A model generated the notes under the pieces. It was not told the DNA's origin and searched no databases. It was given only the letters and a program-made list of their open reading frames with translations. This document shows, piece by piece, positions 30,103 to 50,323 of a stretch of 64,000 bases of DNA. Numbering within the stretch: the stretch's first letter is position 1; every line of letters begins with the position of its first letter. The translations under genes were made by a program, and so were the position numbers. The stretch is taken from assembly GCA_029339505.1 (NCBI GenBank), contig JAQISU010000123.1, positions 6,871,501-6,935,500 on the forward strand, read 5' to 3'. This stretch comes from Unio delphinus (lineage: Eukaryota > Mollusca > Bivalvia > Unionida > Unionidae).

Positions 30103-30426
30103 AGTAGCAAGGTGGGATACCGTGGCGTCCCGGGAAAATCCAGTCAAAAAGGGCTTGGGACACTATGGCGTCAGTCATTTGGGACTGTATGGCGTCAAGG
30201 GAATTTGAACATGGTGGGACTGTATAGCGTCAGCGGGAATTTAACATGCGAACTATTTGGGACTATTTAGCGACAAGGGAAATTTAACATAGTGGGACTA
30301 TATAGCGTCAAGGGAAATTTAACATGGGGAATATTATTTATATTTGGACTTGTCTAGCGACAAGGGAAATGGAGGCAAAGAAAGCTAATATCTTTTCGAG
30401 GTATATGAGTATCCCTGAAAAGGGCC
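30103..30426. repeat. left terminal inverted repeat, with GCGTCA sub-repeats
   Basis: The repeat pairs with 50288-50670. It is built from a phrase TGGGACTATATAGCGTCAAG plus GGAAATTTAACATG, repeated about every 24-52 bases. GCGTCA or GCGACA occurs near 30125, 30168, 30192, 30227, 30270, 30305 and 30357. The inner edge coincides with a histone-type stem-loop. The right repeat is about 60 bases longer because it has extra sub-repeats. The regular GCGTCA boxes could be sites for integrase or terminal protein/replication factors (inference). Confidence 0.9.
30391..30426 (-). terminator. histone-type 3' stem-loop and downstream element, copy 1
   Basis: On the minus strand GGCCCTTTTCAGGGAT (30411-30426) is preceded by CCCAAA and followed by ACTCA, then CGAAAAGA at 30391-30398 after a 12-base spacer. 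Four central stem pairs and the UUUC loop are kept; the two outer pairs are damaged (G-U, G-A). It lies 17 bases after the stop of gene A and forms the inner edge of the left inverted repeat. In animals this arrangement directs SLBP/U7-dependent cleavage without polyadenylation. Confidence 0.75.
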
Positions 30427-30443
30427 TTTGGGTACTTCTTCTT

Positions 30444-30861
30444 TTATTTTCTGCCGTTGTTCCACCATCTTTTGATTTTATTAATGATTCCCTTTTTCTT
30501 TTTCTTTTCGTCCTCGGGAATCCAGTCAGGATGTCCCATAGCTCTAAACTTCTCTTGTATCTTTATCCAATTGTTATTTAATCTTTCAAATTCCTTTTTT
30601 TTTGTTGTTTTCATTGTCCTTTCTCTCCTTACTCCAGTTATCTTTTATCTTTTTCACTTCTTCTAATAGCTCCTTTCTCATCAGTTCTTCGGCTTTCTTG
30701 AGCTGGTCTAGACCATTTTGGACATGGGGTCACTCTGTCAAGATATCATCCAAAAAACACTTTACGTTTTCGACAATATCTATCACTTCCTTTAGTGTTC
30801 CCACTCTGACATAGGGTGGGTTAATGCAGCCTCGTAACGTTTTGGCTTCTTCTTCTAGCAT
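30444..30861 (-). pseudogene. terminal gene A, charged coiled-coil protein, broken
   Basis: From an in-frame Met at 30861 the frame encodes a Glu/Lys-rich, helical protein (ELLEGMLEEEAKTLRG near the start; ELMRKELLEEVKKIKDNW in the middle; INKIKRWWNNGRK at the end). The open frame continues upstream of the Met to about 30935, so the true start is uncertain. It is broken by an in-frame TGA at 30730-30732 (CGA to TGA would explain it) and by a frame change at a nine-T run at 30595-30603. There is no homology I recognise. A histone-type 3' element follows its stop by 17 bases. Confidence 0.6.
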
Positions 30862-30916
30862 TCCTTCTAAGAGCTCCCTGGCTATTTTCAGTCTGTTAGC
30901 AAACTGAATTATTAAT

Positions 30917-30952
30917 TCTTTTCGAGAATAATGGGTAATCCTGAAAAGGGCT
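30917..30952 (-). terminator. histone-type 3' stem-loop and downstream element, copy 2
   Basis: On the minus strand AGCCCTTTTCAGGATT (30937-30952) is followed by ACCCA, the exact histone trailing motif. CGAAAAGA lies at 30917-30924 after a 12-base spacer. The inner stem pairs and UUUC loop are preserved, while outer pairs are weakened. It lies 30 bases after the likely stop of gene B (30983). Confidence 0.75.
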
Positions 30953-30982
30953 GTTTTGTGTGTGCACGAGGAGGGATGACAA

Positions 30983-31320
30983 TCATTTATCGTCTAAGAT
31001 TGCGTCCTCATCTGGCAACAGGATAGGGTCTGCTTCTTCGGAAAGAGAAAGAGAACTCTTTGGTGTCGACATGACAGTCGTTCTCTCTGCTGCTTCTGAA
31101 GTCTATACTTCTCAGTCCATTCTTCTTGGTCTTTTTGAATTTCCTCTCTGAAGAGTTCTTCTATGAGGTCTTCCGTTACTTGCAGCATTCTACAATTCTC
31201 TATCTCTTCAGTCTTTGGCATCAGATTGTGTCTGATACGATGCAGAGTGACTAAGCTTCGTTCAGCTTGGCTAGTCTTGAGCACTTCTTCGTAGGAGGAC
31301 GAGACAAACAATGGATGGTC
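30983..31320 (-). pseudogene. terminal gene B, helical protein with acidic tail, broken
   Basis: The main frame reads SSSYEEVLKTSQAERSL...IRHNLMPKTEEIENCRML...DLIEELFREEIQKDQEEW, a charged helical protein. Around 31065 the better frame shifts to one reading MSTPKSSLSLSEEADPILL and ending in an acidic tail with a TGA at 30983. The latter ends 30 bases before a histone-type stem-loop, so a one-base shift near 31065-31085 probably separates the two parts. No ATG starts the upstream frame. It begins next to TTTCATTTCCAG|TCTGACC, which looks like a splice acceptor, so a first exon may lie further right. The family was not recognised. Confidence 0.55.
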
Positions 31321-31499
31321 AGACTGGAAATGAAATGAAGTTTAATTAAAGTGCACTCGTCTAATTAGAGACATTTGGCACTGTTTAATGTCATCAAAGA
31401 TGACTATTTAATTAATCCAGGGGAAGGAATTGTGCCACATCCCCGCGGGCTTTACTGCATACAAAGTATGCTATTTAATTTGGTCGTCGTATCGACACG

Positions 31500-33235
31500 A
31501 ATGAAAGACCTTCAGGTGAGTGGGAATAAAACCAACACACACTCAACCCTATCAACCAATCTGAAGAAGGTATAGAGGTGCAATGGCACCAAATAATAGC
31601 GAGATAAAAATAGTTTTCTCATATCGCTATGTTGATGGGCTCTGGATGTGGAAAAGGTCCCGGAGGTCGGCCAGTCGATGTCGTAGATGGATGTAGTTTA
31701 CGCCCTGGAACGCCCTAGCCATACTTATTTCAAATTCAGTCCAGTTGTACTAATGGACTACCTAATACCAATACTGTGTAAGCCACCTGTGCAATTGTAT
31801 CAAATAAATGAGTCGTATAAATTTCTTTAACATCCAAACTATACCAATTTTCTAGTACAAAAGTGTACATACTATAAGTCCCAAACAAATTTGTTTAACT
31901 AATATGGCGTTGCGACATATAAAAGTGTAGTCACTGTTTGGTAATAAAGTTTGTTAATTTTGAGCGGTGTTCAAAATTGATCAAGTCTGGTTTCGTAATA
32001 GAGATTGTTCAAAGAGGGTTTCTCGTAACCAAATGAGAAGTCTGGTTTCGTAATAGAGATTGTTCAAAGAGGGTTTCTCGTAACCAAATGAGAACCCTAT
32101 TATTCAGGTAAATGAAAGGCAAAGGTGAAAATTATTCACATCTTGCTCCGCAGGCATTATTTTTCGGGGTGCAGTAGGTTAGCAGCTACAGAGATTCTCA
32201 TGCTGATGCCTGTTATCCTTCTGTCTGGTTAATTTATATCTTCTGAGGTCCTGAAGTTTTCCGGGTACCGGTATTTCGGTCCACGAGGGTCACTCCATTT
32301 TGTCCTCGCCGCTAGTGAAGTCATACGACCTTGTGCTTGGAAGTCCATCTTGTTTTCCACGTGGCCGCCGCCATTATCCTGTGTCAGTATGTCAGAGATT
32401 TTACCGCTCACTGGCCCTTTAGTGGTTAGGTTCCACAGCGGTGTTCTCGGGCACAAATCCGAGCACTTTATTACTCTATGGGTGCATTCTTTTGTTTTTT
32501 TTGCTATACGCTCCTAAATGGCAATATTTATCTGCTGGTCGCCCCGCTTTCACCGTAGCCAGCTGCAGTCCCTGTCAAGCCTGCTCCGTGTTCACCGCCT
32601 GAATGGAGGTCAGACTGGTAGATATAGATATATTTGAGTTATAGTGAAACCGGCCACTAAGGGTCATTTGTTCACTGATTTTAGGTCAATATGTCATTGA
32701 CCATTTATTTTTCCCGTGGGGATTCCTTTGTGGGGAGGGATCCCCACGGGCATTTGTGCAAACAAGTGCACTTTATTAATTGGGCGTCATATTAAATCAC
32801 TAAATAGTGACTATTAACATGAATGTAAGCCCTTGGGTGGGTAGGAATAGAACCAACACACACACATTCTATCAACCAATCGGATTGCTTGTAACAAAGC
32901 GGTGTGCAATGGCACTAATAGCGAGAGAAAAATAGTTTTCTCACATCGCTATGTTGATGGGCTCTGGACGAGAAAAGGAGGAAAAGGTCTCGGAGGTCGG
33001 CCAGCCGATGTCGTAGATAGATGTCGTTTACGCCCCGGAACGCCCTAGCCATACTTATTTCAAATTCAGTCCAGTTATACTAATGGACAAAATAAAACCA
33101 ATATTGTGTTAGCCACCTGTGCAATTGAATCAAATGATTAAGTCGTATAAATTTTCATTAACATCCTATCTGTGCCAATTTTCTAGTACAATAGTGTACA
33201 TATTGGAAGTCCCTAACAAATTTTAAACTAATATG
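31500..33235. repeat. two diverged copies of a 400-bp non-coding segment plus linker
   Basis: About 31500-31905 and 32815-33235 are direct copies; both contain TCGCTATGTTGATGGGCTCT and TACGCCC(T/C)GGAACGCCCTAG, then CTTATTTCAAATTCAGTCCA. Between them lie a 55-bp direct repeat (31984-32038 and 32039-32093) and a GC-richer stretch (32250-32600) without a supported gene. The motif GGTCAGACTGG occurs three times (31317, 32608, 33247), near the edges of the copies. This is the only long non-coding block of the element. Confidence 0.75.
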
Positions 33236-33424
33236 TCTATGCGAAAGGTCAGACTGGAGACTACCCCTGCTTTATATGGTTCAAGCGCGGATGCGATAGA
33301 AAACACCCCTCTACGGTTTAGGGTTGGAAACGTTTGGATAGTTTGATGTGAGGGATAGAAAGAAGTCAAAGAGTATCTATATTAATAAAAATGTAAAACA
33401 AACGACAGACGCATTGGTTTCAAA

Positions 33425-33592
33425 ACACAAAATTTTTATTCAAATAACAAACAACTCACAAAAGACATTTTTTTCAACTAACAAACATTTTTTAATTCAC
33501 AAATATTTGTTTTCAAATAATAAACATTTTTTCAAACAACAAACATTTTTTTCTTCAAATAACAAACATTTTTTTTCTTCAATAACACCAAT
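33425..33592. repeat. AACAAACATTTTTT-type tandem repeat
   Basis: Short units of (A)AACAAACATTTTTTTCTTCAA repeat several times. They overlap the apparent C-terminal tail of the protease frame, which reads KKCLLFEEKNVCCLKKCLLF and is a repeat artefact. Confidence 0.75.
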
Positions 33593-34153
33593 ACATAATG
33601 ATTGACATGGTTGACAATGTTGTGAATTAAATTGAGATTTCGAATGTTGGAAGTCATTGGGCCATTGATGTACACAGAGTTTCCTAGCTAAAGACAACAT
33701 ATAGCCATAATGGTCACAAAACCATCGATCTACTTTGTCATCGTTTCGAGACGAATGACGATCAAAAGAAGTCACTAAATGTTCTAAAGAATGTCCAAGA
33801 CTGCGATGATGCAGAAAATAGACACAATATTGTCCACACACCACAGAATCTGTACCTTGTAATTTCACATTATTGAATCGTGTCGTCTGGGCATTTCTTC
33901 TCATAAAGTCAATGATATCGTCTTCGAAAGGAGGCAATCCATACGAATCAAAATACTCCACACAACGCTCTTGAGGAAAGTAGACAGCTACCTAGTGAGT
34001 TCCTGGAAGATGACTGTCATCTGTGTTGATGACATAAGCTTGATTCTCTTGAGGTTTACGATGAGGTAGTTCATCTTTAGTACACACGACAGGATTCCAA
34101 GAAGCAGTGTACGAACTACGGTTCAAAAGGTAATAAAGTTTCCAGGTATCCAT
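33497..34153 (-). pseudogene. PRO: adenain-like cysteine protease (capsid maturation), one stop
   Basis: This is an ULP1/C5-family protease of Polintons, which cleaves capsid precursors. From the ATG at 34153 the frame runs through the active-site region HLPGTH with the catalytic His. It then runs through the acidic residue in EYFDSYG and the Cys region QGTDSVVCGQYCVYF, where Gln and Cys are the oxyanion/nucleophile pair. A TAG at 33992-33994 follows the catalytic His directly, where this family usually has Trp (TGG to TAG would explain it). No other lesion is seen in the domain. The last 30 or so codons run into a tandem repeat, so the original end is unclear; about 190 residues would be normal. 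Its neighbour to the right is the Cys/His protein and then the major capsid gene. Confidence 0.85.
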
Positions 34154-34237
34154 GTTTTTGTTCCCTTGTTGTTTTCTTTCTTCACAGGTGATGATAAGTC
34201 ATCAATTCAATCCAGACGTTTTGGTTGAAAAGGTCTG

Positions 34238-34687
34238 TCAAGTAACTGGTTGTTTGCTTCGTCTTCTTACTATTGGCCAAAAGGGCTTCGATGCGATCAA
34301 TTCTCCAGCAAACAATGGAGGAGAGGAATGATCACGCAAGTCTTTATACCACTGATGTAACACGGCTTCTTCTGAGATGCGACTCCAAGCTTCGTTCAGA
34401 TAATCGTCCAATTTCTCTTCTTGACTCATCATCATACATTTATCATGTTAAATTTCACTGGGATGATCGATTTGACAGCCATAACAATAATCTTTTTTAA
34501 TCATGTCTCTCACTGTATTCTCTAAGTGTTTGGCAAAACAGGTGACTAAATGTTGTTTCTGTTCTGGCCATCTGTATTGCATTGTCACTACTTCTTCTTG
34601 TTGGCCTAGGGGGTCTGCTTTCTTTGTAATCTCCCATTTCATTTTCATCGATTCTTCACTGTTCAAAGAGGGACAAAAGTTTTCCAT
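34238..34687 (-). pseudogene. conserved Cys/His Polinton protein, one in-frame stop
   Basis: The frame starts at an ATG six bases beyond the capsid gene stop and runs through MKWEITKKADPL and HLENTVRDMIKKDYCYGCQIDHPS. It then meets a TAA at 34448-34450 and continues in the same frame with HDKCMM and DYLNEAWSRISEEAVLHQWY. The C-x2-C...H...H-x2-C arrangement around HPS looks like a zinc-binding site. I have seen the same YxxGCQxDHPSQ style in unnamed proteins of other Polinton-bearing genomes (from memory). Function unknown; its position between capsid and protease genes suggests a virion or assembly role. Confidence 0.6.
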
Positions 34688-34692
34688 AGTGT

Positions 34693-36009
34693 TTAATAGT
34701 CTAGAATGACTTCTCTCAAACTGTTGATTTCTATGGTATTATCGAATTCGGCATACAGAATGACATTCACCCTTTCGGTAAGAGGTTCTGCAAACTGAAG
34801 TTCCACACGCAGTTGCCCAGATTTTATAGGGTGGAAATGTCCCTCGTCGCTGTCTTGGTCTGGAGTGAAATCGAAACCCCACAAAGTGTAACCTCCTGCA
34901 TAATCGTCGTAGGAAATGCCGTGACTGGTGTTGATTCCTAACTGTCATGTGGCTTCGTACAGTGACAAGTACGACCTCAAGTAATTCTTCTCGGCAAAGT
35001 TGGATTCAAAGGGTCGGGTACACAAAGTTTTGCCATCGCGACTGACTTCGATTTCGGATACTTCGCAGTGCTTAAACTGGAAAGGATTTTGATCGTGGGT
35101 ACCGTTGAGGGCTGCATTGCTGACGATACCAATGAATAAACGTTTGGGTAACTGTCCTTGGAACAGATGATCTTCGATCTTAGATCGGAGTCCAGTGGCA
35201 ATGGTGAAAGTTTTTACATCCACGCGTCGTATCGGATACTTGGTTGTCGTTCAGCTCAAAGTGTGACTGATATCATTTTCCACTTTAAGTAACACTTCTA
35301 CGTGACGCACGTATAACATGGCTTCTTGGATAATGGTTTTGTATTCGTTGGCATGAGCCATCAAATGGAAAGCAGTACTGCTACGATTCAGTCTCAAGCG
35401 AATATCCACTCCGTTCAGTAAATACTTCTCTTGAAACCACATGTCCAAATGCAAACGATCGAACAGTTATAAACTACGTCCTTGCAGAATTTTCGTTCGA
35501 CGCTCGTTAAAACCCACATTGTGAGGATCGTCATCTACGGTCAAAGCTGTGTCGTTAAACGTATTATCACCTGCTGTGTCAGGTTTCCATACCACGCAAG
35601 CATCTAAATCAGAGTTCTTGGCTTCTTTTCCGTACGTCAAGAGATTTTCGAGGTACGCTCGGTATGGGTAAGTATCCATGCTACTGCTCACCAGTTTGTT
35701 ATTCATATACAAATCCACATCGCTGAACAAGGAATGCATAACATTGTTGACGGGAGCTACTCGGGCATCGGCTCCTGGAACGGAGTTGTCCGTTTTAATT
35801 ACTTTCACTTTCAAATACAAGTAACTGCTGTTTAGATCGATGTAATCTTCGGGTTGCCCTTTGATTTCAAACTCGATGGGAGCTGAATCCGTCAAAGAGG
35901 AGACGTGATGAAATTCGACCCATTGGGCTTCTTGCATGGTCATCATCATGGGTGGCATGGCAAAGATATCCAGTTCCGACTTGGAACAGGCACAAGATTC
36001 TTGGTGCAT
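34693..36009 (-). pseudogene. MCP: hexon-like major capsid protein (double jelly roll), three stops
   Basis: The start is the ATG at 36009, since the frame just upstream is closed. The frame is 439 codons. The N-terminus SELDIFAMPP followed by QWVEFHHVSSLTDSAPIEF is typical of the Polinton capsid family once listed as 'F54H12.2-like'. The second half contains QLPKRLFIGIVSNAALNG, NPFQFKHCEVSEIEV, YLRSYLSLYE, GHFHPIKSGQLRVELQFAE and ends EFDNTIEIN. Three in-frame stops interrupt it (TAA 35467-35469, TGA 35251-35253, TGA 34945-34947) but there is no frameshift over 1.3 kb. Length and motifs match a full-length family member. It forms capsid facets in related viruses. Confidence 0.9.
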
Positions 36010-36151
36010 AATTTTTTTCACTCAGTCTCAATGTTTTAATTTTAATAATCAAAAATTCCTAAGTCTCGAGCGGTTCATTTTTCTTCGTCTTTCTAGCTTT
36101 AGAGGTACAGAGACTTTTGGAAGGGTGTATTCGTCGACGCTTTCTGCCTTG

Positions 36152-36466
36152 CTATGTCCTCAGGGAAGCAGGAATGCCAGACTCGGTACCGTTCAGGGCA
36201 TTTATAGGACTTTCTCGTCGACCCAAAATCTCTTTACCCGTTTGAAGCAATACATCTTTGCCTGCTCTCAAAAAAGCTTCTTTGGGGTTTTGTTTGTCAA
36301 TGAGGACATTTTGAAGAAAATCTTTGCCGTGAGTCAATGCGGCATCTTTTAAGGTGTGCTAACCTCGTGTCACCATCGGTTTCAAAACAGGGACCACGGA
36401 ACGAAAGGCTGGTTTAAACATATCTCCTAAACCACGTCCTCGTTATCGACCGACTCCTCGGTACAT
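36152..36466 (-). pseudogene. small basic capsid-associated protein, two stops
   Basis: From the ATG at 36466 the frame begins MYRGVGR, meets TAA at 36443-36445, continues RGRGLGDMFKPAFRSVVPVLKP, meets TAG at 36359-36361, and continues DAALTHGKDFLQNVL, QNPKEAFLRAGKDVLL and GKEILGRR. A Gly/Arg start followed by an amphipathic helix and repeated 'GK-x-x-L' phrases fits the small protein found between penton and hexon genes in Polintons. It may be comparable in role to adenovirus internal capsid proteins (inference). No frameshift is seen. Confidence 0.65.
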
Positions 36467-36517
36467 AGGATACATCACTTTTTCAGTTGTTCGAGAATCG
36501 TTTTTGAAAATGGAGTT

Positions 36518-37401
36518 TCACTGTGACTTTCCCTTTGGAATATTTTGTCCCAGTTCTCCTTTTATAGTAATGTTGACACTGTCGAAATACGACTTACTGA
36601 CGGGCAAATAATGAAAATGTACAAATTCGCGGTGAACGTGATAGGTATTTCCACCTTCCTCGTCAGCGGCTGCGGCAGAATCCACTTTGAAAGGAATGAC
36701 ACGCAGTAAGGGTACAAAGGTGTGTCCTACCACGTTGTACTCCACCACATCGGAAAACAAACACATCAAGTTGAGTCCTTGATTCATTTCTAAGGTGAGT
36801 CGAAAATATTTCTCAAAATCCGAGTTATTGGTTATGGATGGTATTTCATTTTTATTGATCACCATCCTTGTGTCTCCACCTAAAATATACAATTCAGGGC
36901 AAAAGGTATTGGCCATAATTTGTTTTTGAAAATTTCATCATTAGGCGACGAGCCACTTTATGGTACTCAAAGGTAACACTTTTTTTTTACTTTCTCCATG
37001 GCTTTACCAAACAAAGTATTGAACCTGGTAGCAAGTGTAGTCATTAAATGTTGACCACTAAAATAATAACCAGCAGGAATGGTGAACACATAGGTGGTCC
37101 CTTTAGTTTGGGGGTCATCTGTTTTCTTTGTGTCACTGCCAGTGATGCCTCGTTCGTCTAAGGCTTTTTGCAATTGCTCGTCATACACTAGTACTTTGAA
37201 AGTGTTTTTATTTTCGACGATGTTTTTGATTTGTGTCGGGTGTATCATTTCCACTAAAGCCACTTCCCAATGAGCATCTTGATCCAAATGAATGGTTTGA
37301 GGTAATTTAGCCGTGTAGAAGCACAACGTGTTGTTAGGAAAGACCTGCATGGAACTGTCACTGGGTAACGTTAAATAAAATTGGTTAATAGTGTAGTTCA
37401 T
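36518..37401 (-). pseudogene. penton-like minor capsid protein (single jelly roll), frameshifted
   Basis: The ATG at 37399-37401 overlaps the previous gene's stop (ATGA). The first part reads QFYLTLPSDSSMQVFPNNTL, DAHWEVALVEMIHPTQIKNI and PAGYYFSGQHLMTTL. The later part, in another frame, reads PELYILGGDT, FLRLTLEMNQ-like residues (as FRLTLEMNQGLN), FSDVVEYNVVGHTFVPLLRV, VHFHYLPVSKSYFDSVNITI. Penton proteins of this family pass from 'WEVALxEI' through 'LRVVPV' to 'xxVxIxI' in one frame. Here the frame changes at a nine-T run near 36979-36987 and again near 36905-36915. The overlap suggests translational coupling or a shared transcript with the membrane-protein gene. Confidence 0.85.
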
Positions 37402-37817: not shown

Positions 37818-37822
37818 AATGG

Positions 37823-38950
37823 TCACTTCTTTTTATAGTCGATGACTTGCGAAGCGTCAATCCAAGAATCAAAACTAGGAGGATATCCTTTCCAATGTAC
37901 TTTGACTTTTTTGACACGACGTTTTCCTACTTTACGGGTTCTTCGTTCGAGAATGCTTTCAATGTCGTACACGTCGTCTTTTTTTTTGGTGACACGTTGT
38001 AACTCAGGCAAGTAAAACGTTCCTTTTAATACTTCTCCGTTCATTTTTTCCAATTTATAGACAGTAGAATGACGATCACGCACTCGTCCAGTAGCACGAA
38101 ACAATTCGATGGTCCAGTTGGGTAAGTAAACTTTGTCGAAAGTGCGTTTGGTTTTGCTAATGCGAACCTAATCTCCAGGGGTTAACACTCCTCCACCTTT
38201 CTTGGGGACAGCCATCGTCCGGGACATACCAAACAGACGCTCAAAAACAGTCACTTCGTTGTCAGGTGTCACATCTTGTGGGGTACGTCCAATGCTTCTA
38301 TGGTAAGATTGATTGTAGGCTTGAACTAAGTGCGGTAAGACGTCGATGTACTTGAGAGTGTGTTGATGCGTAAAATATTTCCACATGCGTTCTTTCAAGG
38401 TACGTTGAAAACGTTCCACGATGCTGGCTTTGGTTTCAGGATTTTCGGTGGTGAAAAAATTAATGTTACGTTTCTTTAATTCTCGTTGGAAAGCTTGGTT
38501 CAGAAATTCGGTGCCTTTGTCGGTTTGCCATCGAAGAAGGTGATGACCACTTTGTTTCAACACCAGTTGCAAAGCTCGTACTAACTCTCCGCTCGATTTG
38601 GATGTCAATGGTACGACCCAGGCAAATTTAGAAAAGACGTCGATGACACAAAACAAATATTTGTAGCCACGATTGTAGGTGGCTAAATGAGATATATCGG
38701 CTAAATCGGCTTGCCATTGATGCTCGATGCCTTCTACCTGAGTGCGACTTCTGTAAAAATTTCGTCGAATGGGTTTGTGTAAAGTGTACGTAGCTTGTTC
38801 CTGTAACCATCGTTGTACTTCAGGTAAACGGAGTTTTTTCAGATGAGTTTTTACAGCACGATACAATTTCTGAATGCCTCCGTAACCTGCAGGGTGGGCT
38901 GAATCGTAGTAAATGCTGGCTAATACCTTCTCCCTGGTTTTGTTAATAAG
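37823..38950 (-). pseudogene. INT: Polinton integrase (DDE) with chromodomain, one stop
   Basis: Retroviral-type integrase that inserts the element with 6-bp duplication. The frame opens at 38950 without an ATG (first Met is deep inside), so the start has decayed. It reads SAHPAGYGGIQKLYRAVKTH, EHQWQADLADISHL with catalytic Asp 1, YKYLFCVIDVFSKFAW, WQTDKGTEFLNQAF with Asp 2, NPETKASIVERFQRTLKER with catalytic Glu, and YNQSYHRSIGRTP. A TAG at 38168-38170 follows LTPGD. The same frame continues VRISK and LPNW and ends in a chromodomain (DVYDIESILERR, KVHWKGYPPSFDSWIDA). All three catalytic acids are present. About 375 codons fits the family. Confidence 0.92.
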
Positions 38951-39634: not shown

Positions 39635-39698
39635 GGGCTTCCAAAGGTTACGTCTGAGATCGTGGTGCTCCATGGGTCCCTTTTATCTTCTGGAAGGA

Positions 39699-41626: not shown

Positions 41627-41668
41627 GTTGACAATGTATGAGACAAGGTCAAAATGACCGAGGTTTAT

Positions 41669-41677
41669 TTTTATATA
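41669..41677 (-). promoter_or_regulatory. TATA box of the 41264-41626 gene
   Basis: TATATAAAA on the minus strand, 43 bases before the ATG at 41626. Confidence 0.65.
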
Positions 41678-41699
41678 GATTTTTTAGTTGTTCATATTG

Positions 41700-42414
41700 C
41701 TATGTCGACGACGAGGACGTGTACACGACAGGTCCTCTGTCTAAACACCAGTCGTGAAACAAATCAGTACGAAATCGCAAATAATCGGGAGTGGTGGGTT
41801 TTAAATCCACGAGTAAATAGGTGTGTGGCATCATCGTACGCATGAGTCAGCCAAGGTGTTCCTAACTGTTTGGCTAAGACTTGCACTTGCGATTTATCTC
41901 GAGGACTTTTAAACAAGACCAAGTAATGAGCATTGAGACTAATGGTACGATGGGCTTTACTTAGTTGAAATAAATTTTGTGTAATGTAAATGACACTGGC
42001 ATTACGATGATGCCATTTACGCGTAAACCACAGTTTAATTTCTTCTTCTTCTTCTCCTAACATGTCCAAAATGACCAAATGAGTTTGACTAGAGTCAGAT
42101 ACGATCCCATCGTCTTCGCTAGGAATGCCTTCCACAAACACAATGGAATCACCTTGACTTTCTTGCAAGAGGCTGTATGCCGATTGCCACTCTTTATAAC
42201 ACCACACGATGCGTTGAGGTGAACGATCGATCAAATGATGTTTATGTTCGATCAAACGTTTGACAAATTCGGTTTTGCCTGAACCGCTCGGTCCAGCAAT
42301 TAACATGTTAAAACGATGACGAAGATACAAGGCCTCCAAACTAGCATGATCTAAGTGTTCGTCAATGACTTTGAATATGGAGGAGGAAGGAGAAGAAATA
42401 GTAGAATTAGCCAT
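41700..42414 (-). pseudogene. ATP: genome-packaging ATPase (A32/FtsK-HerA type), 3' frameshift
   Basis: Packaging motor of the virion. From the ATG at 42414: NMLIAGPSGSGKTEFVKRLI contains Walker A, QRIVWCYKEWQSAY follows, HLVILDMLGEEEEE is Walker B (the usual acidic second residue is Met-Leu here, LDML), and VIYITQNLFQLSKAHRTISL is the sensor-like motif. The frame then closes at 41764. A one-base change near 41780 would open the neighbouring frame, which reads RTDLFHDWCLDRGPVVY and ends at 41700-41702. That resembles the normal 'RLRTxxF...VVY' end of the family, so about 25 C-terminal residues are out of frame. The core is intact. A TATA box lies at 42465-42472. Confidence 0.9.
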
Positions 42415-42464
42415 AGTATTGTAGGGTATGACAATATTGACACAAAAACAGACAAGACAAGAGG

Positions 42465-42472
42465 TTTTTATA
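42465..42472 (-). promoter_or_regulatory. TATA box of the ATPase gene
   Basis: TATAAAAA on the minus strand, 51 bases before the ATPase ATG. Confidence 0.7.
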
Positions 42473-42505
42473 CTTTTTTCAAGACACGTTTATTTCAATG
42501 CATGT

Positions 42506-43265: not shown

Positions 43266-43374
43266 CCTTCCACGGAATCTGTTTTATCACAAGTGATAAA
43301 GGTTGTGGCATGGTAGTTCTATTTTATACTTTTTAATGTCGAAAACCATAAGTGTATATTCTGCACAGAATTAT

Positions 43375-43680: not shown

Positions 43681-43692
43681 TTTTAGAGAGGG

Positions 43693-43700
43693 CTTATATA
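43693..43700 (-). promoter_or_regulatory. TATA box of the 43375 gene
   Basis: TATATAAG on the minus strand, just upstream of the opening of the orphan frame. Confidence 0.55.
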
Positions 43701-43764
43701 CTGGACTAGGTTTGTCTCCAAACCAAATTGGTTTGTTAAACGATATGGTACAGTATTGTCACTT

Positions 43765-44358
43765 TCAATCACTAGGTCCCACTAAAGGTAGGTATTGACA
43801 ATTCGGAGACCATCGAGCATGTTCCAGGTAAGCGGAATCTTTCTGTTTCCACTCGTGAATTGACACACCACTACTGAAACACTTGACTTTATCCATTTCG
43901 CCCAAGTAGAAAAATCCGGCCCTGGCTAATTTTTCAGGAGTTGGTCCAGGCAGATATTTTGGCCATTTATCTTTGAAGGTTTGGAATCGACTTTTAAAGT
44001 GACAGTATTCAGGCAAGCTCGTAGGGAACGAATATTCGACTCTCCTCACTTCAGTTCGATGCAGGTATGGTGAAATTCCTAGGAGTCCACGATAACATGT
44101 GGCACCGCTTTCGCATCCCTCATGTTTAACACGCACAGCATCACTTTCCATGGTAGATATAGGGGTAATAGTCATAGCAAAGTTCCCACAATGTCCTGCT
44201 GAATCGCTAAAGTCACAGCGTCTGGCATTACTCCAATCGCAAGGTTTAACATCGCACTCCACTTGAGAATCCCCAAATTTGAATGATGCCTGTTTAAATG
44301 GATTGATCTTGTGTCGCTTGGTCGTTGTAGTTACAAATGAACTGCTGGTTTTTGACAA
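43765..44358 (-). CDS. BIR-domain (IAP-like) protein carried by the Polinton
   Basis: The frame is unbroken for about 197 codons. The C-terminal third is a BIR: RFQTFKDKWPKYLPGPTPEK, LARAGFFYLGEMDKVKCFSS and EWKQKDSAYLEHARWSPNCQ. These match R-x-x-TF-x-x-W, L-x-x-AGFFY-x-G-x-x-D-x-V-x-CF-x-C, W-x-x-x-D and EHARW-x-P-x-C. Zinc ligands Cys, His and Cys are present, but the second Cys is Ser (AGT, 43870-43872), a one-base change from TGT. The first two thirds are Cys-rich (CDVKPCDWSNARRCDFSDS) and not recognised. No RING follows. No ATG starts the frame; a TATA box at 44365-44372 suggests a start near 44320-44340 that has decayed, or the Met at 44175. BIR proteins block caspases, so an anti-apoptotic role during element replication is likely (inference). 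Confidence 0.8.
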   Translation of the reverse strand: MSKTSSSFVTTTTKRHKINPFKQASFKFGDSQVECDVKPCDWSNARRCDFSDSAGHCGNFAMTITPISTMESDAVRVKHEGCESGATCYRGLLGISPYLHRTEVRRVEYSFPTSLPEYCHFKSRFQTFKDKWPKYLPGPTPEKLARAGFFYLGEMDKVKCFSSGVSIHEWKQKDSAYLEHARWSPNCQYLPLVGPSD

Positions 44359-47300
44359 TGTCCCTTTTTATATTCTGCCCAATCTCGACGTGACCGTACG
44401 GTAAAGTGAAGTGATTGGGAAGTCCTACTCTCTTCTGGTACACGATTTTATAGATTTTTTCCAAAGGTCGGCTGACGATTTGGTGTGTGGGAAAACGGAC
44501 AATCTTGTGCGGTTCGTGGGTGGTCACGTAAAAACTTTCATCTTGTCCCGAGTGTAAGGCTTCTTGTAGCACGTTAAAGTTCAACACTCGAGTAGTGCGA
44601 TAACTGAGAGTCAAATCCTTTCACTTTACATTCGGTGTGCATTTCTCCTTGTGGGTCTCGGTATTCGTAGCCGTAATTTTTAGGACCGCCTCTTGCAAAA
44701 CTTAGAATCTTGTCGTCGGGATATTCATCGGTCCAGGCTACTAAATGGTCTCCTTCGATGATAGGGTTACACTGGTTCGGTCGGTGAATGTAGATGCAAC
44801 TGTCCGTGTCAAAATACAGCACATGATCTCCTAACAGTTCTAACACTTCGTACAATTTTAAGCGAGCGTGGGCTGTCACGTAAGCTACAATGATGACATT
44901 TCCAAATTTGTCGGCTTCTACAAAGTCTAGTTCTTCTTCGTAATTGACTAAGATCAAGTCCTCACGAATGACTTCCACGTGTTTCATGTATTTGGTTTTG
45001 TCGTGAATTATCTGGAAGTATCGGGAAGGTTCGGACAAATACTCCGTCTTGGGTAAAGACGGTCGTTGTGCCATTTTACCCCACAAGCAATTTAATATCA
45101 CTTTGGCAAACGATCGCCTTCCTTCGTTTTTCTCGATGTAGTCTAAAGTGATACCTTCCTGCTCCCGATGTTTTTCTTTGAAAATCTTTTGGTCTTCGGG
45201 AGTGTGACACCAGGACGGATAGCCGCTATCTTCTTGTTTTAGTTTCAAAAGGCATCCACGTAGTCTGCAAAGATACCTTTCCGTGTCTCGTCGCCCTTGT
45301 GGTATTGTTGTGTCTTGGGAAATTGGTAAATTTCGTACACTTCTAACAGTTGGTATCCCAAGTCCAGAGCTTTAAACAATTCCACACTAACCCACGTTCC
45401 TTTCAAAGCGCGTTCTTCCTGGGTGTGCTGACAATGTTGGTCTTGTTGCACGTTTCGGCACAAGTACGACACAAAGGAAACATTAGTTTCCCTTGGCAAT
45501 GGTGAGGTAAAACGGGATGGTACAAGTCCGTTGGAGGCAAGACTTTGCACTTGATCAATCCTTCGTACTGGCGTATGTGGTCTAAGTCAATGTGTTCTGT
45601 CATCAATTCTGGGTGCCCTACGGGAAAGTGACAATACTTGCAGACGTAAGGATACAGCGAACACACGTCCAAGTATCTTATTTCTTCTCCCTTCTCCTCA
45701 TCCGCCTGGTAGAGCAAACAGGTGGCATTCGTTCATCCTCCGTACAAACTATCCCGTGGATTCAGGGGGTCCACCAGCTTGTAACTTACCACGATGCGTT
45801 TAAACTCAGTATCGGTTTTCAAACGCTGATCGTACTCGTGTTCCCACATTTCCACCACCTGGTATCCTTGCTGTTCTAACTTCAATCGTCGCTGACAAAT
45901 TGTCTGGTACAAGTCTTCCATGGTCCGTTGTAAAAACTGATTTTTGGTGTCACGTTGAGGGTAGCACATGGGACATCGGTTAAATAAGCATCCATTAAAC
46001 TCGTACACGATTTGAGGATTTTCTAAGTCCCAGCCATCCACCGAATACGTTCCGATGTTTTTTTCGCCTCCTCCGTTGCGAGCGTGTTGGATCCATTTGT
46101 CTTCCTTGTTGCACAAGTAATGTAGCCAGCGTAGGGCTTTGACCGAGTATTGACGTTTGACAAAGTTCGTCTTTTGAGGACTGATGACAGCGAGGGTGTT
46201 TTCAGGCATGAAGTGTTTTCGGTACACTAAGGAACACGCTTTGGCGATGGTACAAGCTTCTTTCAAAGGATCGATCCCTCCGTGTTCCATGAACAATTCT
46301 CGAAATTTTCCACAGCAACGTCGTAAAATGTCCACGTCAGATCGACAATATTTTAACATTTCTTCCTGAAAGTCGAAGGGATCCGAGGCGTGAGTCTGGT
46401 ACCAAGCGTGGAAATCTTCTCGTTGTTCTGTGCGCATGTTATCGGGGTCGTAGTCGTCAGCTTCAGGCAAATGGTTTAGAACGACATGTTGATTGGCTTT
46501 GGTATTAATAAAGTGTGCAAAATAACCTTTGGCCATTTCTGGCATTCCAAACGTTTTAGGCATGCGACTCAAAGGCATGGCCAAGTAACTCATTAAATCT
46601 TTAAATTGTGTTTGTCTTACTGGCATAGAAATGATTTTGGCTCCGTTTAAAGTCACTTTAGGACGTTCGGTACTTTGTTCCGTATAGTATCTGAGCCGAA
46701 ATTGCCCATCGTATCCCGAGAAATAAATTGTGAGCCATTACCGTGGCATGGTGATGATAATCTCCATAAAGTTTAATGTCTTCTGGACTCCACGTTTCGT
46801 CGATTGGGTTTAGGATCCATTGGGCAAAATCGGCCAACGTGTTTGGCCCTTGAAATATTTTTTCACGTCCTCCAGGAATCTTGCTGCAGTGAGGGCAATG
46901 ACTAAAGATAGGCTCTTGGATGGACTTCTCGCACGCTCGGTAAGCTACACAGAAATTAAGAATGTGAATGCCAGTCTCTTGCATGCATTCGAAATCAAAA
47001 TAGATAAAATTCCCTTTCTTCTGGGTATCTTCTTGTTGGGGTTGGTAGTTTTGAATGAAGCATTCGTGCTCCAAGTTCACGATTTGGTGACAAATGTGAC
47101 ATCGTTTCTTCCCTCGACAAACGTGAAACTTGGTATTATTGATACGTATGCCTTGTCCACAAGTAGGGCACAATCTCAGAAGCTGACAAGTACTTTTCTG
47201 CTGTGAACCCGGCATCTTCAAATGTTGTTGGTAACAGGTAGGACTGACAAAAGTGCGCTGACAAACAGGGCAATACACTCGTACTTGTCCTTTGTCCAGA

Positions 47301-48414
47301 CAGGGTTGAGGGGACAAACATCCCTCACATTTCGTTCCACAATTCTTGTGGTGTTCTCGATTGTTATAACCATAGTCACATTTTTCACAGTAGTAACCGT
47401 ATCCCAGGAATGCAGTGATACTGGTAATGGTATCAAAATGCTCATCGTGATGATAGACGTGAATGTATTTACCGTCTTTGAAATCATTGCCTCGAAACAA
47501 AAGAGGACCACGCACTTCATGAGGGTGTACTTTCAAGGTGTAACGTGGTGCTAAGACGCCTTGCAATTCACGCATTTCTGGAATGCCACAAGAGGTGTCT
47601 TTCGATATCCCCGCTTGCTGTAACAAAAATTCTGCTTCACTTCGTTGTTTGGCTCGGTCCGATTGTTGAATAGTTTTCCAAGCTCTTTTCCATTCTGCGG
47701 TGTCGCTCTTGTTGGCGTACGTTTGTCCCACGACGATGGCACGGGCTAAACACATCTGGTCTTGAGAATTGTTAATTTGGACGAGGCTTCTCTTAATGCT
47801 GCGAAAGTTGTCGACTAATAACACTTTTTTGCGTCCTGTCCCTTGGGGAAGAGAAACGTGGGTCATGAACAGAGTGGCTTTTTCATCGGTGATGTGAACT
47901 TGTCGTTGGATTGTGGCACATATTGAATTTTGTCGATGACTTAGGAAGGTGTTAGTTGTGATGGGTTACTAAACTCGATCCAAACGGGAGACTTCAAATT
48001 ATCGTGATGAATAGAAAGTCTCAAGCGATTGTCTTCTTTGGCTTGACATTGCTGTTTCAGTGTAGTTAACACAGAATCCCACACCTCGGTAATGAACCCT
48101 TCTGTATTCTCCAAAGGTACATTAGACTTGAAATCTTTAAACTTTACTGCATACGTGTAAGCCGTTGTTCTAAATTTTCGAGAGGAACGCTTTTCCGTCT
48201 CTCGAATGTGATAGTAATTTTCAGGGTTTACTAAGGGTGGTGAACTTTGCTTGGACGTCGATTGTTTGGGCCTGGATTCAGGCTCACTCATGTCATCTTC
48301 AAAATCACTGGCATGAATTTGAGCCAAGACTTCAGCTACTGTGCTAGGCGATACATTACGTTTCTGTCTCTTACTGTCTTCTCCTTTCTCCACAACATGA
48401 TGCGGTCTTTTCAC
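44294..48414 (-). pseudogene. POLB: protein-primed family B DNA polymerase, at least seven lesions
   Basis: The replicative polymerase of the element. From the ATG at 48414: a charged N-terminus (KRPHHVVEKGEDSKRQKRN), then AYTYAVKFKDFKSN, a Cys-rich region (YCEKCDYGYNN, CPVCQRTFVSPTCYQQHL, CHICHQIVNLEHEC). Exonuclease I NFIYFDFECMQETG, Exo II near GYDGQF, Exo III LKYCRSDVDILRR. Polymerase motif A YLDVCSLYPYV, motif B KVILNCLWGKM, motif C YFDTDS, and an end like VGLPNHFTLPYG. Breaks: TAA 47941-47943, TGA 45733-45735, and frame changes near 47915, 46727, 45437, 45246 and 44598. Length about 1,370 codons is normal. All catalytic motifs survive as relics. The 3' end overlaps the opening of the BIR frame. 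A TATATAG box (48471-48478) lies 57 bases before the ATG. Confidence 0.95.
44365..44372 (-). promoter_or_regulatory. TATA box of the BIR gene
   Basis: TATAAAAA on the minus strand, within the 3' end of the polymerase gene and just upstream of the open BIR frame. Confidence 0.6.
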
Positions 48415-48535
48415 CTTGTCTGCAAAACGTCAAATGACTACATTTTAAAGACCATGACCCCTATATATTCATGTCCGATCCGTGTATATATAAAGGGCCA
48501 GTGTCTGACATTTCGGTATTCATTTTACTCTCACA
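48415..48535. promoter_or_regulatory. divergent promoter, polymerase (-) and zinc-knuckle gene (+)
   Basis: Two TATA boxes sit back to back: TATATAG at 48471-48478 for the minus-strand polymerase gene (57 bases to its ATG) and TATATATAAA at 48485-48494 for the plus-strand gene (about 42 bases to the expected start at 48536). The shared region is about 120 bases. Confidence 0.75.
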
Positions 48536-48816
48536 TTGACCAGAACGATCGTGAAAACATCAAAAAAGGTACCAATAGAGACAAAAGTCAAGATACCTGT
48601 TATCATTGTAAAGAAAACAGACATTGGTCTCCAAACTGCCCTAAGAAACAACAGGAGCAGGAGGAGGAGAGGAATTCTGAACAAGAGGAGGAGGAAGAGG
48701 TACCCTCCCCCAAGAAAGAACCCCGACACGTTCACAAAGACAAGAAAAGAAGACGAAACGAAAGTGAGGAAGAAGAAGAAGAAGAAAAAGAAAAACCTGT
48801 GACAGTAAAGAAGTGA
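48536..48816 (+). pseudogene. CCHC zinc-knuckle protein with Glu/Lys-rich tail, start lost
   Basis: The zinc-knuckle reads CYHCKENRHWSPNC, an exact C-x2-C-x4-H-x4-C, preceded by NDRENIKKGTNRDKSQDT. It is followed by an acidic run (EEERNSEQEEEEE), VPSPKKEPRHVHKDKKRRR and a second Glu run ending VTVKK. Promoter spacing predicts a start at 48536, where the codon is TTG (ACATTGACC), and the frame beginning there (TRTIVKTSKKVPIETKV) differs from the knuckle frame, so one frameshift lies between. Such knuckles bind single-stranded nucleic acid, for example RNA or replicating DNA. AATAAA occurs at about 49019-49024. This plus-strand gene breaks the general minus orientation. Confidence 0.6.
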
Positions 48817-49071
48817 AAGAAACAGAAAGAGTGAACAGAAGGAGCCTATGAATTTTTTAATGTGGTATTGTGTTATGTTATGTTGTGATATTGGATTGTA
48901 ACATTTGTACCAGAATACACCAGAGAGAAAAAAACGTAAGTGTCTCTTGGTTTTGATTTTATAGAATAAGAACCTATACTCACACACTCATTCACAAACA
49001 AGTAATACATGGGTTAAAAAATAAAAATGAACTTTTGAGTTTTCATTGAATTAGGCAATTGAAATGGCATT

Positions 49072-49108
49072 TCTTTTCGAAATAATTTGAGTGGCCCTGA
49101 AAAGGACC
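49072..49108 (-). terminator. histone-type 3' stem-loop and downstream element, copy 3 (best)
   Basis: On the minus strand GGTCCTTTTCAGGGCC (49093-49108) forms a full six-pair stem (one G-U) with a UUUC loop. It is preceded by CCAAC (histone: CCAAA) and followed by ACTCA (histone: ACCCA). CGAAAAGA follows at 49072-49079 after a 13-base spacer, the position of the U7-binding histone downstream element. It lies 32 bases after the stop of gene C. Confidence 0.85.
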
Positions 49109-49140
49109 GTTGGGGTTTTGTTTGTTTAAACAAAACAAAC

Positions 49141-49377
49141 TCAGAAACGGGACGTAACCATCTTTAACTGTCTTAAGCCTTTGCCACGGCCAAGACCTAC
49201 TTCGGGACTGGTGGTTCCTGTCAATGATTTGGTAGAAATCACTAACGGTGGTATAGACGTACTCACAGTTAGATTGGGTTGTTTAGCTCGAGAAGGTTTT
49301 TTTCTCCTCGGTCGTGATAAAGAAGTCTTTTTCTCCTCGGTCGTGATAAAGAAGTCTGATACATTTGTTTTAGACAC
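49141..49377 (-). CDS. terminal gene C, small basic protein
   Basis: An open frame of 78 codons starting at GTG directly after an in-frame TAA, so the ATG is lost or lies elsewhere. It reads SKTNVSDFFITTEEKKTS, LSRPRRKKPSRAKQPNLTV, VISTKSLTGTTSPEVGLG and ends GKGLRQLKMVTSRF. A 22-base tandem duplication (CTCCTCGGTCGTGATAAAGA...) lies at about 49304-49357. Basic and Ser/Thr-rich, possibly a nuclear or virion protein. It is followed at 32 bases by the best histone-type stem-loop. Confidence 0.5.
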   Translation of the reverse strand: MSKTNVSDFFITTEEKKTSLSRPRRKKPSRAKQPNLTVSTSIPPLVISTKSLTGTTSPEVGLGRGKGLRQLKMVTSRF

Positions 49378-49417
49378 TTAACTCAGCTAAAATATCCAAA
49401 AATACCGTCGTGACCGT

Positions 49418-49423
49418 TTTATT
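49418..49423 (-). terminator. AATAAA poly(A) signal after gene E
   Basis: AATAAA on the minus strand, a few bases after the stop of gene E. This gene lacks a histone-type stem-loop, unlike its neighbours C and D. Confidence 0.5.
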
Positions 49424-49427
49424 TTCA

Positions 49428-49805
49428 CTATTTCTCTTTCTGTCCTTGGTCTTCTTTCTTCTCTGTTGCTGCTACTGTTTCTTCCTGGTGTTTCCTTCTT
49501 GCTTCTTCTTCTTTCCCCTGTTGAATAAGAAAAGCTTGTTCTTCTACTTTCTGTTCTTGTAAAAATCGCTCCAATTCTTCTTTTTGCCTCTGCTTAAAAT
49601 CATCGACGTGTAAATAAGAAGAAGCAGAAGGTAACGAAGGTTCCGGAACAAATTCTTGTGAAGTTAGAAAATCCACAATATCCCAGTTAAAATCAACTTC
49701 TTCTGGATGTAGATTTGTCATGACTTTGGTAGTCACTGCTGTACCATAACTTGCTGTCTCCGCTACTGGTTCACCCCAATTTATCGTCTTCTTAGTGTCC
49801 GACAT
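49428..49805 (-). CDS. gene E, acidic coiled-coil protein
   Basis: An intact frame of 125 residues from the ATG at 49805 (MSDTKKTINWGEPVAETAS). The middle (DFNWDIVDFLTSQEFVPEPS) is acidic and aromatic. The last 60 residues form a predicted coiled coil (DDFKQRQKEELERFLQEQKV, QGKEEEARRKHQEETVAA). A TATATAG box at 49854-49862 gives a 49-base spacing to the ATG. No known family recognised. Shares a promoter region with gene D. Confidence 0.65.
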   Translation of the reverse strand: MSDTKKTINWGEPVAETASYGTAVTTKVMTNLHPEEVDFNWDIVDFLTSQEFVPEPSLPSASSYLHVDDFKQRQKEELERFLQEQKVEEQAFLIQQGKEEEARRKHQEETVAATEKKEDQGQKEK

Positions 49806-50026
49806 GATTGACAACTCTGTCGCATCGATTGACTGCGCACAGACGCTAGTACCTCTATATAGGAAGAAAGGTGACGTTACAGACTGCTCTCTTCCGATTG
49901 GACGACTGTGACTGACTTTTGTAACGCGTGTTTGGATTGGTGAAGAAACTCAATCCGTTTCGATCCGCTCTTCTCCTATAAATAACCGCAGTACACGGCA
50001 TTCGCTTCACCTGTTCTCATCACAAG
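49806..50026. promoter_or_regulatory. divergent promoter of genes E (-) and D (+)
   Basis: TATATAG (minus, about 49854-49862) serves gene E and TATAAATA (plus, 49977-49984) serves gene D, 43 bases before its ATG. About 115 bases lie between them, with TTGGACGACTG- and GTAACG-type repeats but no motif I can name. Confidence 0.75.
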
Positions 50027-50260
50027 ATGTGGACCAACGTAGACTCTTCTACCCTTGTTTCTACCATGCTATTTCGTACTGACTTACCCATGTATGTCAG
50101 TTCATCATGGACTATCACTCATATGACTGATACAGCCCTTTGGAAGAGAAGGATATATGTAGAGAAGCAAGGTTGTTTAAAGAGAGTTCTCCTCTATGGT
50201 CTAGCAGTGAGGAGAAGTTTAAGGAAAAGAAGAAGATCCGTGAGATGTCCTCTGTGTTAA
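50027..50260 (+). CDS. terminal gene D, small protein with basic tail
   Basis: An intact 77-residue frame from the ATG at 50027 (MWTNVDSSTLVSTMLFRTDL, SSSWTITHMTDTALWKRRI), with a basic C-terminus VRRSLRKRRRSVRCPLC. It has a proper TATA box and a histone-type 3' stem-loop 27 bases after its stop, so the transcript would be only about 280-300 bases. That is the layout of a replication-dependent histone mRNA. The protein shows no histone fold and no recognised homology. Confidence 0.65.
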   Translation: MWTNVDSSTLVSTMLFRTDLPMYVSSSWTITHMTDTALWKRRIYVEKQGCLKRVLLYGLAVRRSLRKRRRSVRCPLC

Positions 50261-50287
50261 CAATATACTGTTAACATTACACATAAC

Positions 50288-50323
50288 GGCCCTTTTCAGA
50301 GCCACTCATATACCTCGAAAAGA
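50288..50323 (+). terminator. histone-type 3' stem-loop and downstream element, copy 4
   Basis: GGCCCTTTTCAGAGCC (50288-50303) with a UUUC loop and five of six stem pairs (one C-A mismatch), followed by ACTCA. CGAAAAGA is at 50316-50323 after a 12-base spacer. It follows gene D by 27 bases and forms the inner edge of the right inverted repeat. Confidence 0.85.

Follow-up and report, generated by a model that had tools for sequence, protein, structure and literature searches.

The 64-kb window analysed here, the whole stretch of Unio delphinus DNA under study, contains a decayed Polinton with a protein-primed type B DNA polymerase (pPolB), an rve integrase with a chromodomain, an A32-type packaging ATPase and long terminal inverted repeats (TIRs), the same features as are found in known Polintons/Mavericks and animal adintoviruses. 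A repeat search placed the left TIR at 30102..30429 and the right TIR at 50285..50671, and the two arms are 92-94% complementary. Between them, all on the minus strand, lie integrase pieces at 37826..38950, made up of an rve core at 38171-38950 (PF00665, E 2.1e-11), which also matches PDB integrases, and a chromodomain at 37826-38167 (PF00385, E 1.1e-7); a piece of the ATPase at 41767..42489 (PF04665, E 7.7e-7 on 41764-42414); a BIR (inhibitor of apoptosis) domain protein at 43768..44367 (PF00653, E 7.3e-21); and pieces of pPolB at 44577..46737 (PF03175, E 2.1e-9), which have named relatives in Ostrea, Mytilus and spiders. In the window copy, whose genes are broken, the scanned pieces gave no Pfam match to MCP, penton, minor capsid protein or maturation protease.

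Stem-loop elements behind the Polinton genes

This copy carries four stem-loop elements, each in sense and behind the stop of an element gene, and a pattern scan of the window found them at the coordinates and on the strands that the initial annotation had given. Element 1 (class L; 30391..30426, minus strand) consists of a stem-loop at 30411-30426, the sequence ACTCA and an HDE-like CGAAAAGA at 30391-30398; a third shared box, TTGCC, lies at 30374..30378 on the same strand. It follows the left-end gene, the 3' part of which (...KRWWNNGRK stop) occupies 30444..30644 (minus), with its stop 17 nt ahead of the stem; other copies whose frame is open have gaps of 14-23 nt. Element 2 (class 2; 30917..30952, minus) has its stem-loop at 30937-30952, followed by ACCCA and by CGAAAAGA at 30917-30924, and stands behind the 3' part of gene 2 (30983..31341, minus). 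Element 3 (class 3; 49072..49108, minus) has its stem-loop at 49093-49108, ACTCA, CGAAAAGA at 49072-49079 and a TTGCC box at 49054..49058 (minus), and the C-terminal piece of gene 3 (49141..49377, minus; N-terminal piece 49431-49949, minus) ends 32 nt ahead of the stem. Element 4 (class R; 50288..50323), the only one of the four on the plus strand, has its stem-loop at 50288-50303, ACTCA, CGAAAAGA at 50316-50323 and a TTGCC box at 50336..50340 (plus). It lies 27 nt behind the stop of the right-end gene (49982..50260, plus), in which the third codon positions of this frame are the most variable. The signals are placed on both terminal genes, which face outward and have them inside the TIRs, and on some internal accessory genes.

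Several details of the initial annotation could be refined. The CGAAAAGA motif does lie 12, 12, 13 and 12 nt past the stems of elements 1 to 4. The gaps of 17, 30, 32 and 27 nt between stop and stem are also as described, and the C-terminus of gene 3 in the window (GLRQLKMVTSRF) agrees with that of five relatives of 204-211 amino acids (P0215-P0219), which indicates that the stop used for element 3 is the true end of the gene. For gene 2, the TGA at 30 nt is missing in four other copies (L022, L028, L035 and L039), where the frame ends at a TAA 31-35 nt ahead of the stem; the window copy shares this TAA, at 34 nt, and either codon may end its frame. Of the six stem pairs, element 3 has all six, and elements 1, 2 and 4 have five in the window copy. 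Four elements are present, but they are not four separate ones, as elements 1 and 4 each close one TIR on its inner side and are therefore two copies of one thing.

The stem-loop genes gave no notable Pfam or PHROGs match that would point to a function, the best being PF01665 at E 0.006, which is under its own cut-off. The idea that the element carries a histone gene was considered and rejected, since none of the pieces from genes L, R, 2, 3 and 4 matched a histone in Pfam. An H4-like stretch does occur in the copy L039, where it is decayed and antisense to the Polinton genes.

Tests in the window and across the host genome

The pattern used to scan the window (a stem of 5-6 pairs, a loop TTT(A/C/T) and GAAAAGA) was fixed after the elements were known; it matched exactly four times in the 64 kb, at elements 1 to 4. 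With this post hoc pattern, none of 24,881 dinucleotide shuffles reached four matches, and the shuffle maximum was two. When positions 29000-52000 were compared with all of Rfam, RF00032 matched three elements with E values of 2.3e-5, 4.3e-5 and 0.026. The scores were 22.8 bits for element 1, 30.3 for element 3 and 31.0 for element 4, all below the gathering score of 34, and element 2 gave no RF00032 match at E up to 10. A match above threshold, without which the initial annotation would have taken its proposal as refuted, is therefore absent from this decayed copy, because three of the stems miss one pair. We also built a model, R1, exclusively from Polinton elements, 24 in number, of which the window supplied three. 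R1 found four matches in the window at 54-62 bits (54.7, 54.0, 59.1 and 61.7 for elements 1 to 4), and the next best scored 12.6.

Matches above threshold are found elsewhere in the host genome. In a search of its 2.5 Gb, scoring against RF00032 was confined to the top 75 of 434,796 first-look candidates, so that the resulting numbers, at least 74 matches and at least 69 over the cut-off, are lower bounds. Fifty-three of the 74 matches were examined. Homology to the window TIR or to the terminal genes assigned 44 of them to Polintons; eight were histone genes or lay beside a histone remnant, and one was assigned to neither. The cut-off was exceeded by 39 of the 44 Polinton matches, which reach 43-44 bits, and the strongest matches in the host genome, among those listed, are ends of the same Polinton family. 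Fourteen control prokaryotes all gave matches, none of them over the cut-off.

Other copies in the host genome have intact stems, compensatory changes and versions above the threshold. The TIR members (L and R) of our sample came mostly from the RF00032 top list, so that their intact stems are biased; classes 2 to 5 were collected by pattern, flank BLAST or R1, and R1 picked the alignment members of classes 4 and 5. Compensatory changes were seen in three of the six pairs, both among 42 elements (23 distinct; 92.8% of cells paired) and among 21 elements chosen independently of their RF00032 score (20 distinct; 90.8% paired). As many doubly changed pairs were reached in 70 of 500 shuffles for the larger set and in 24 of 500 for the smaller one, and as high a covariation score in 3 of 500 and 0 of 500, respectively. 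U-G pairs also occur in the aligned stems. Conservation was 0.93 in the stem and 1.00 in the HDE of class 4, against 0.65 in the 3' UTR just ahead; the corresponding values for class R were 0.97, 0.93 and 0.78, whereas in classes L and 2 stem and flank differed little.

Other Polinton copies carry at least one stem-loop gene beyond those of the window. Most elements of the family have CCAAA, CCAAC or AAAAC ahead of the stem and ACTCA, ACCCA or AACCA behind it, and GAAAAGA is exact in 27 of 29 tallied elements. The loop of class 5 is GATC, unlike histone loops. The third box, as [TA]TGCC, was present in 12 of 16 contexts against 0.36 expected, with the contexts partly dependent on each other and the motif chosen after looking. 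Some copies are decayed or partial, namely gene 2 in L024, gene 3 in L029, the second copies in L019 and L036, class 4 in L028 and class 2 in L034.

Host histone genes and other known systems

The host histone array (L009 and L010) contains H2A, H3, H4 and H2B, as identified by BLAST, and a fifth gene that is presumed to be H1. These five genes end in GGCCCTTTT(C/A/T)AGGGCC or GGTCCTTTTCAGGACC, with GAAAAGA (GAAAAAGA in H2A) 13-15 nt further on, and TTGCC is a third box common to them and to the Polinton elements. R1, although built from Polinton elements only, recognises every one of these five genes in the host repeat, with scores of 38-56 bits. The claim that these Polinton genes bear signals of the histone mRNA 3' end type was thus upheld, as the host histone genes share the stem-loop and GAAAAGA at nearly equal spacing. 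Compared with the metazoan histone mRNA 3' end (RF00032 plus HDE), the Polinton signals share the stem of six pairs, the UUUC loop, the CCAAA-like sequence on the 5' side of the stem and ACYCA on its 3' side, the purine-rich element 12-13 nt on, the short gap to the stop and the sense orientation. They differ in their setting: the genes that bear them belong to a mobile element and are not histone genes, and some of the signals lie within TIRs. In classes L, R, 2 and 3 the HDE usually reads CGAAAAGA; classes 4 and 5 have AGAAAAGA, as do four of the five host repeat genes; the closing pair of the stem is A-U in classes 2, 4 and 5 and G-C in the histone type.

A search for the host U7 snRNA with RF00066 gave one match (L062), which at 27.5 bits and E 0.7 was below the cut-off; it was not accepted as U7 on this score, and duplex energies with the HDEs failed to separate the candidates. 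The U7 Sm-site pattern TCTTTTC-N-AATTTGTCTAG occurred at five places, three of which were inspected, against four for the reversed control, and is thus at chance level. For the candidate L064, good pairing was calculated with the presumed H1 HDE (-17.8 kcal/mol), but the stretch past its Sm site folds weakly (-6.3), and on this ground it was not accepted.

Among viral contigs, no relatives were found with the pPolB piece, the ATPase piece, the pPolB alignment, the gene 3 alignment or the strict DNA pattern. A looser pattern returned 55 viral contigs, which we took as a negative control, and their best R1 match scored 21.9 bits (E 0.046). The initial annotation knew of no earlier report of this kind in Polintons, and the titles and abstract beginnings returned by searches of the open-licence literature contain none for Polintons, adintoviruses or other DNA viruses; in this respect the window element differs from Polintons/Mavericks and adintoviruses as described in those texts. 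The sole viral RF00032 claim in these texts concerns nsp3 of SARS-CoV-2, a virus sequence likewise annotated with RF00032, where the reported match of 14.7 bits lies inside coding sequence and, in the available text, is accompanied by no viral HDE (PMC7786107). The Polinton elements, in contrast, reach 43-44 bits, stand after stops and are followed by a downstream element.

Possible processing of the Polinton transcripts

What is observed is the sequence and structure of the elements, their sense orientation and position after the stops, the architecture shared with histone genes, and conservation with compensatory change across copies. On this basis we propose, with a probability of roughly 0.85, that some genes of this Polinton family bear 3'-end processing signals of the host histone type and that these signals are read by SLBP and U7. 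While the element was alive, host SLBP would have bound the stem-loop of the nascent transcript, and the U7 snRNP would have paired with GAAAAGA and perhaps with the TTGCC box further downstream, by the mechanism that the available text of PMC7026596 and PMC6303110 describes for histone 3' ends. The histone-specific nuclease would then have cut about 5 nt past the stem. The resulting mRNAs would have a stem-loop end and no poly(A), and, since SLBP is present in S phase, cells would have produced and translated them mainly then. The use of SLBP and U7, the cleavage site, the absence of poly(A) and the coupling to S phase are all predicted from sequence.

It is possible, though unlikely, that the signals are used only in part, with SLBP on the stem-loop aiding translation or stability of mRNAs that are nevertheless cleaved and polyadenylated nearby, like some histone mRNAs. 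In 17 of the 21 left-end gene copies, AATAAA lies within 60 nt ahead of the stem, so poly(A) use may occur there, and the available text of PMC9756948 describes overlapping histone and poly(A) signals in human histone pre-mRNA. The same hexamer is found at this distance in two of six host histone genes. It is absent from classes 2 (0/6), 3 (0/6), 4 (0/7) and 5 (0/2), however, and present in only one of ten class R copies; downstream of the stem, AATAAA or ATTAAA occurs in three of 21 copies of class L, two of ten of class R, one of six of class 2 and one of seven of class 4. Moreover, the HDE, which is needed for U7 cleavage, is conserved about equally to the stem. Less probable still is a histone 3' end that was once captured by recombination and has since been copied within the element as a passenger without function. 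Beyond the HDE, classes 2 and 4 have similar sequence for about 40 nt. The flanks of class 5 are a variant of those of class 4, and class 3 looks like the 3' flank of a host H2B, so that a captured and duplicated cassette is the likely origin of these signals. A mere passenger would fit poorly, however, with signals that directly follow the stops of different genes in sense, with pairing kept through compensatory change, and with a UTR that diverges faster just ahead than stem and HDE do in classes 4 and R.

That elements 1 and 4 are inner TIR ends could also suggest a palindrome acting in DNA, as a replication origin, protein-binding site or hairpin. We reject this as highly improbable, as elements 2 and 3 and class 4 lie outside the TIRs, all elements are in sense, U-G pairs are present and the host histone genes bear the same signal. 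Chance resemblance, for which only the scores below the RF00032 gathering score in the window speak, is in our view refuted by the shuffles, by the E value of 2.3e-5 over all of Rfam, by family-wide conservation and by the low R1 score of the viral contigs returned by the loose pattern.

Processing by SLBP and U7 is thus our preferred reading, and the presence of a histone mRNA signal in place of the ordinary tail signal suggests that several Polinton genes are tied to dividing cells. We consider it somewhat better than an even bet that there is a class of animal Polintons/adintoviruses whose terminal and accessory genes follow a poly(A)-free programme through the complete three-part signal of the host histones (stem-loop, GAAAAGA and TTGCC) and are expressed in S phase only, with the TIRs doubling as the shared 3'-end signal of the terminal genes. 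If the proposal is true, non-histone animal mRNAs, viral ones included, would be made by the SLBP/U7 pathway, which is unreported in the titles and abstract beginnings surveyed. It would offer the study of SLBP and U7 specificity a set of naturally evolved non-histone substrates, and it would explain why poly(A)-selected RNA-seq could miss such transcripts. It would also give a virus-like element a simple route to restrict its expression to the time of DNA replication.

A Polinton with four histone-type stem-loops

A repeat search of the window placed terminal inverted repeats (TIRs), composed of degenerate units about 35 nt long (families D3-D6), at both ends of a Polinton, 30102-30429 and 50285-50671. 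Fragments of a type B polymerase, an rve integrase with chromodomain, an A32 ATPase and a BIR protein lie between them. This copy has decayed, since the coding sequence of the polymerase, like that of other genes, is broken across several frames. It also holds direct repeats (31594-33223; about 1.3-kb spacing, 85-92% identity; D2, D12, D14), and its BIR (inhibitor of apoptosis) domain gene (43768-44367) has homologous pieces at loci L025, L029 and L039. A reverse transcriptase with DUF6451, encoded by an uninterrupted frame of 409 aa at 6628-7857, probably represents a young LINE. Over 70% of its length it matches a protein of Sinanodonta woodiana at 96% identity, and the remaining named relatives listed are mostly from molluscs and Schistosoma, with one fish; taken with the size of the genome, this suggests that the host is a unionid freshwater mussel.

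Re-reading of the sequence agreed with the initial annotation in all coordinates, strands, spacings and stop distances of the four stem-loops, elements 1 to 4 (30391-30426, 30917-30952 and 49072-49108 on the minus strand, 50288-50323 on the plus strand). A fixed-rule scan of the 64 kb matched these four and none besides, and dinucleotide shuffles (n = 24,881) gave 0, 1 or 2 matches each. Elements 1 and 4 are not independent, because each forms the inner end of one TIR. In the proposed check with the Rfam histone 3' stem-loop model RF00032, three of the four were matched in a search of all Rfam families (E = 2.3e-5, 4.3e-5 and 0.026), but all fell below the gathering score. R1, a covariance model trained exclusively on 24 Polinton elements (three from the window), scored the four at 54-62 bits, with the next match in the window at 12.6 bits. 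The R1 scan found no such signal on the polymerase, integrase or ATPase of the window Polinton, and therefore the signal marks a subset of Polinton genes, namely the two terminal genes, which face outward, together with some small accessory ones, the latter with no clear Pfam match.

Gene 3, the gene of element 3, offers the best check of gene ends. Five related proteins (204-211 aa), from metagenome and public sources, share 58-86% identity with the N-terminal piece in the window, across 54-68% of that piece, and terminate in GLRQLKxxxSRF or a close variant, which is the C-terminus of the window piece; the stop of that C-terminal piece lies 32 nt upstream of the stem. For the right-end gene, the frame whose stop lies 27 nt before the stem varies most at third positions. 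The left-end gene shows the same in its frame, weakly; where a copy keeps that frame open, 14-23 nt separate the stop from the stem. AATAAA occurs near this stop in 17 of 21 copies, leaving room for poly(A) use at the left-end gene.

Host histone genes and other Polinton copies

Over the whole 2.5-Gb host genome RF00032 gave at least 74 matches, at least 69 of them above the gathering score; none reached that score in 14 control prokaryotes. Of the 74, 53 were inspected in their genomic context. Forty-four were assigned to Polintons (39 over the cut-off), being homologous to the TIR or the terminal genes in the window; 8 were histone genes or adjoined a histone remnant (six H2A genes of an array, one H2B and one beside an H2B remnant), and one, L014, had no assignment. 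The host histone array (G000:C15:1-35661; loci L009, L010, L059-L061) has a 6.8-kb unit and shows an internal change of orientation. The unit holds H2A, H3, H4 and H2B, identified through BLAST, plus one more gene that is taken for H1 on account of its place. All five end in a perfect six-pair stem, 29-38 nt past the point where the longest reading frame stops, followed by GAAAAGA (GAAAAAGA in H2A), the histone downstream element (HDE), and R1 finds all five at 38-56 bits. The Polinton signal is thus a close copy of the host's, down to the part that U7 would read. Separately, a decayed H4-like stretch (L039:1957-2136, 41% identity) lies antisense to Polinton genes, about 1.5 kb inward of the left-end stem-loop of the L039 Polinton.

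Stems damaged in the window are intact in other copies, with GGCCCTTTTCAGGGCC at the TIRs and AGCCCTTTTCAGGGCT at gene 2; the gene 3 stem there reads GGTCC...GGACC or GGGCC. R1 revealed a further class, class 4 (AGCCCTTCTCAGGGCT), in 7 copies and a decayed eighth, and a class 5 in 2 related copies (L033:6542-6582 and L036:6556-6596), where the loop GATC replaces UUUC but GAAAAGA and a third box are intact. Its flanks show that class 5 is a variant of class 4, and it is doubtful that SLBP binds it. Several of these loci also carry pieces of Polinton polymerase, integrase, ATPase or other genes.

Pairing, conservation and a third box

Across 42 Polinton elements, of which 23 are distinct, pairing holds in 92.8% of stem cells, with both-side changes in three of six pairs, and shifting the partner by one column lowers pairing to 43-64%. 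In 21 elements (20 distinct) not chosen by RF00032 score, 90.8% are paired, again with both-side changes in 3/6 pairs. The covariation score was reached by 3 of 500 shuffles for the larger set and 0 of 500 for the smaller; the count of double-change pairs was reached by 70/500 and 24/500, respectively. Conservation in class 4 is 0.93 in the stem and 1.00 in the HDE versus 0.65 in the 35 nt before the stem, and in class R (right-end gene) 0.97 and 0.93 versus 0.78; classes L (left-end gene) and 2 show little contrast. Tallied singly, 29 elements, broken ones among them, have at least five pairs in 23, an exact in-place GAAAAGA in 27 and the third box in 26.

This box, [TA]TGCC, recurs in Polinton classes and in several host histone genes, at a distance of 31-36 nt past the stem (29 nt at locus L013). 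In the window it lies at 50336-50340, 30374-30378 and 49054-49058, and it occurs also at L009, L015 and Polinton loci. It is present in 12 of 16 contexts versus 0.36 expected from the surroundings, for a motif picked post hoc and contexts that are partly dependent. The strict form is absent in H4, H2B, element 2 (TTGCT) and L014. Our prediction is base-pairing with a GGCAA close to the host U7 5' end, or else a role in some other step of histone 3'-end formation; such a box is not known to us from histone genes of vertebrates.

Proposed processing and origin

According to PMC7026596, the animal stem-loop is bound by SLBP and the HDE pairs with the 5' end of U7, and CPSF73 cuts between the two; PMC6303110 argues for MBLAC1 as the nuclease and cites cleavage 5 nt after the stem. 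Searches of the host genome with the RF00066 model and sequence patterns did not find the U7 RNA. The simplest reading of the sequence evidence is that Polinton pre-mRNAs would enter the host's SLBP/U7 histone 3'-end pathway. As to origin, sequence beyond the HDE is common to classes 2 and 4, and a stray host H2B gene has a 3' flank that class 3 resembles; it is plausible that a histone 3' end was captured and later spread among Polinton genes.

In the open-licence literature we found no account of DNA viruses, Polintons and adintoviruses included, with 3' ends of the histone type. The signal itself is of a known kind; what is new, as far as that literature shows, is its presence in a mobile element, on genes that do not encode histones. 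If processed in this way, the Polinton stem-loop transcripts would be confined to S phase and would lack poly(A).
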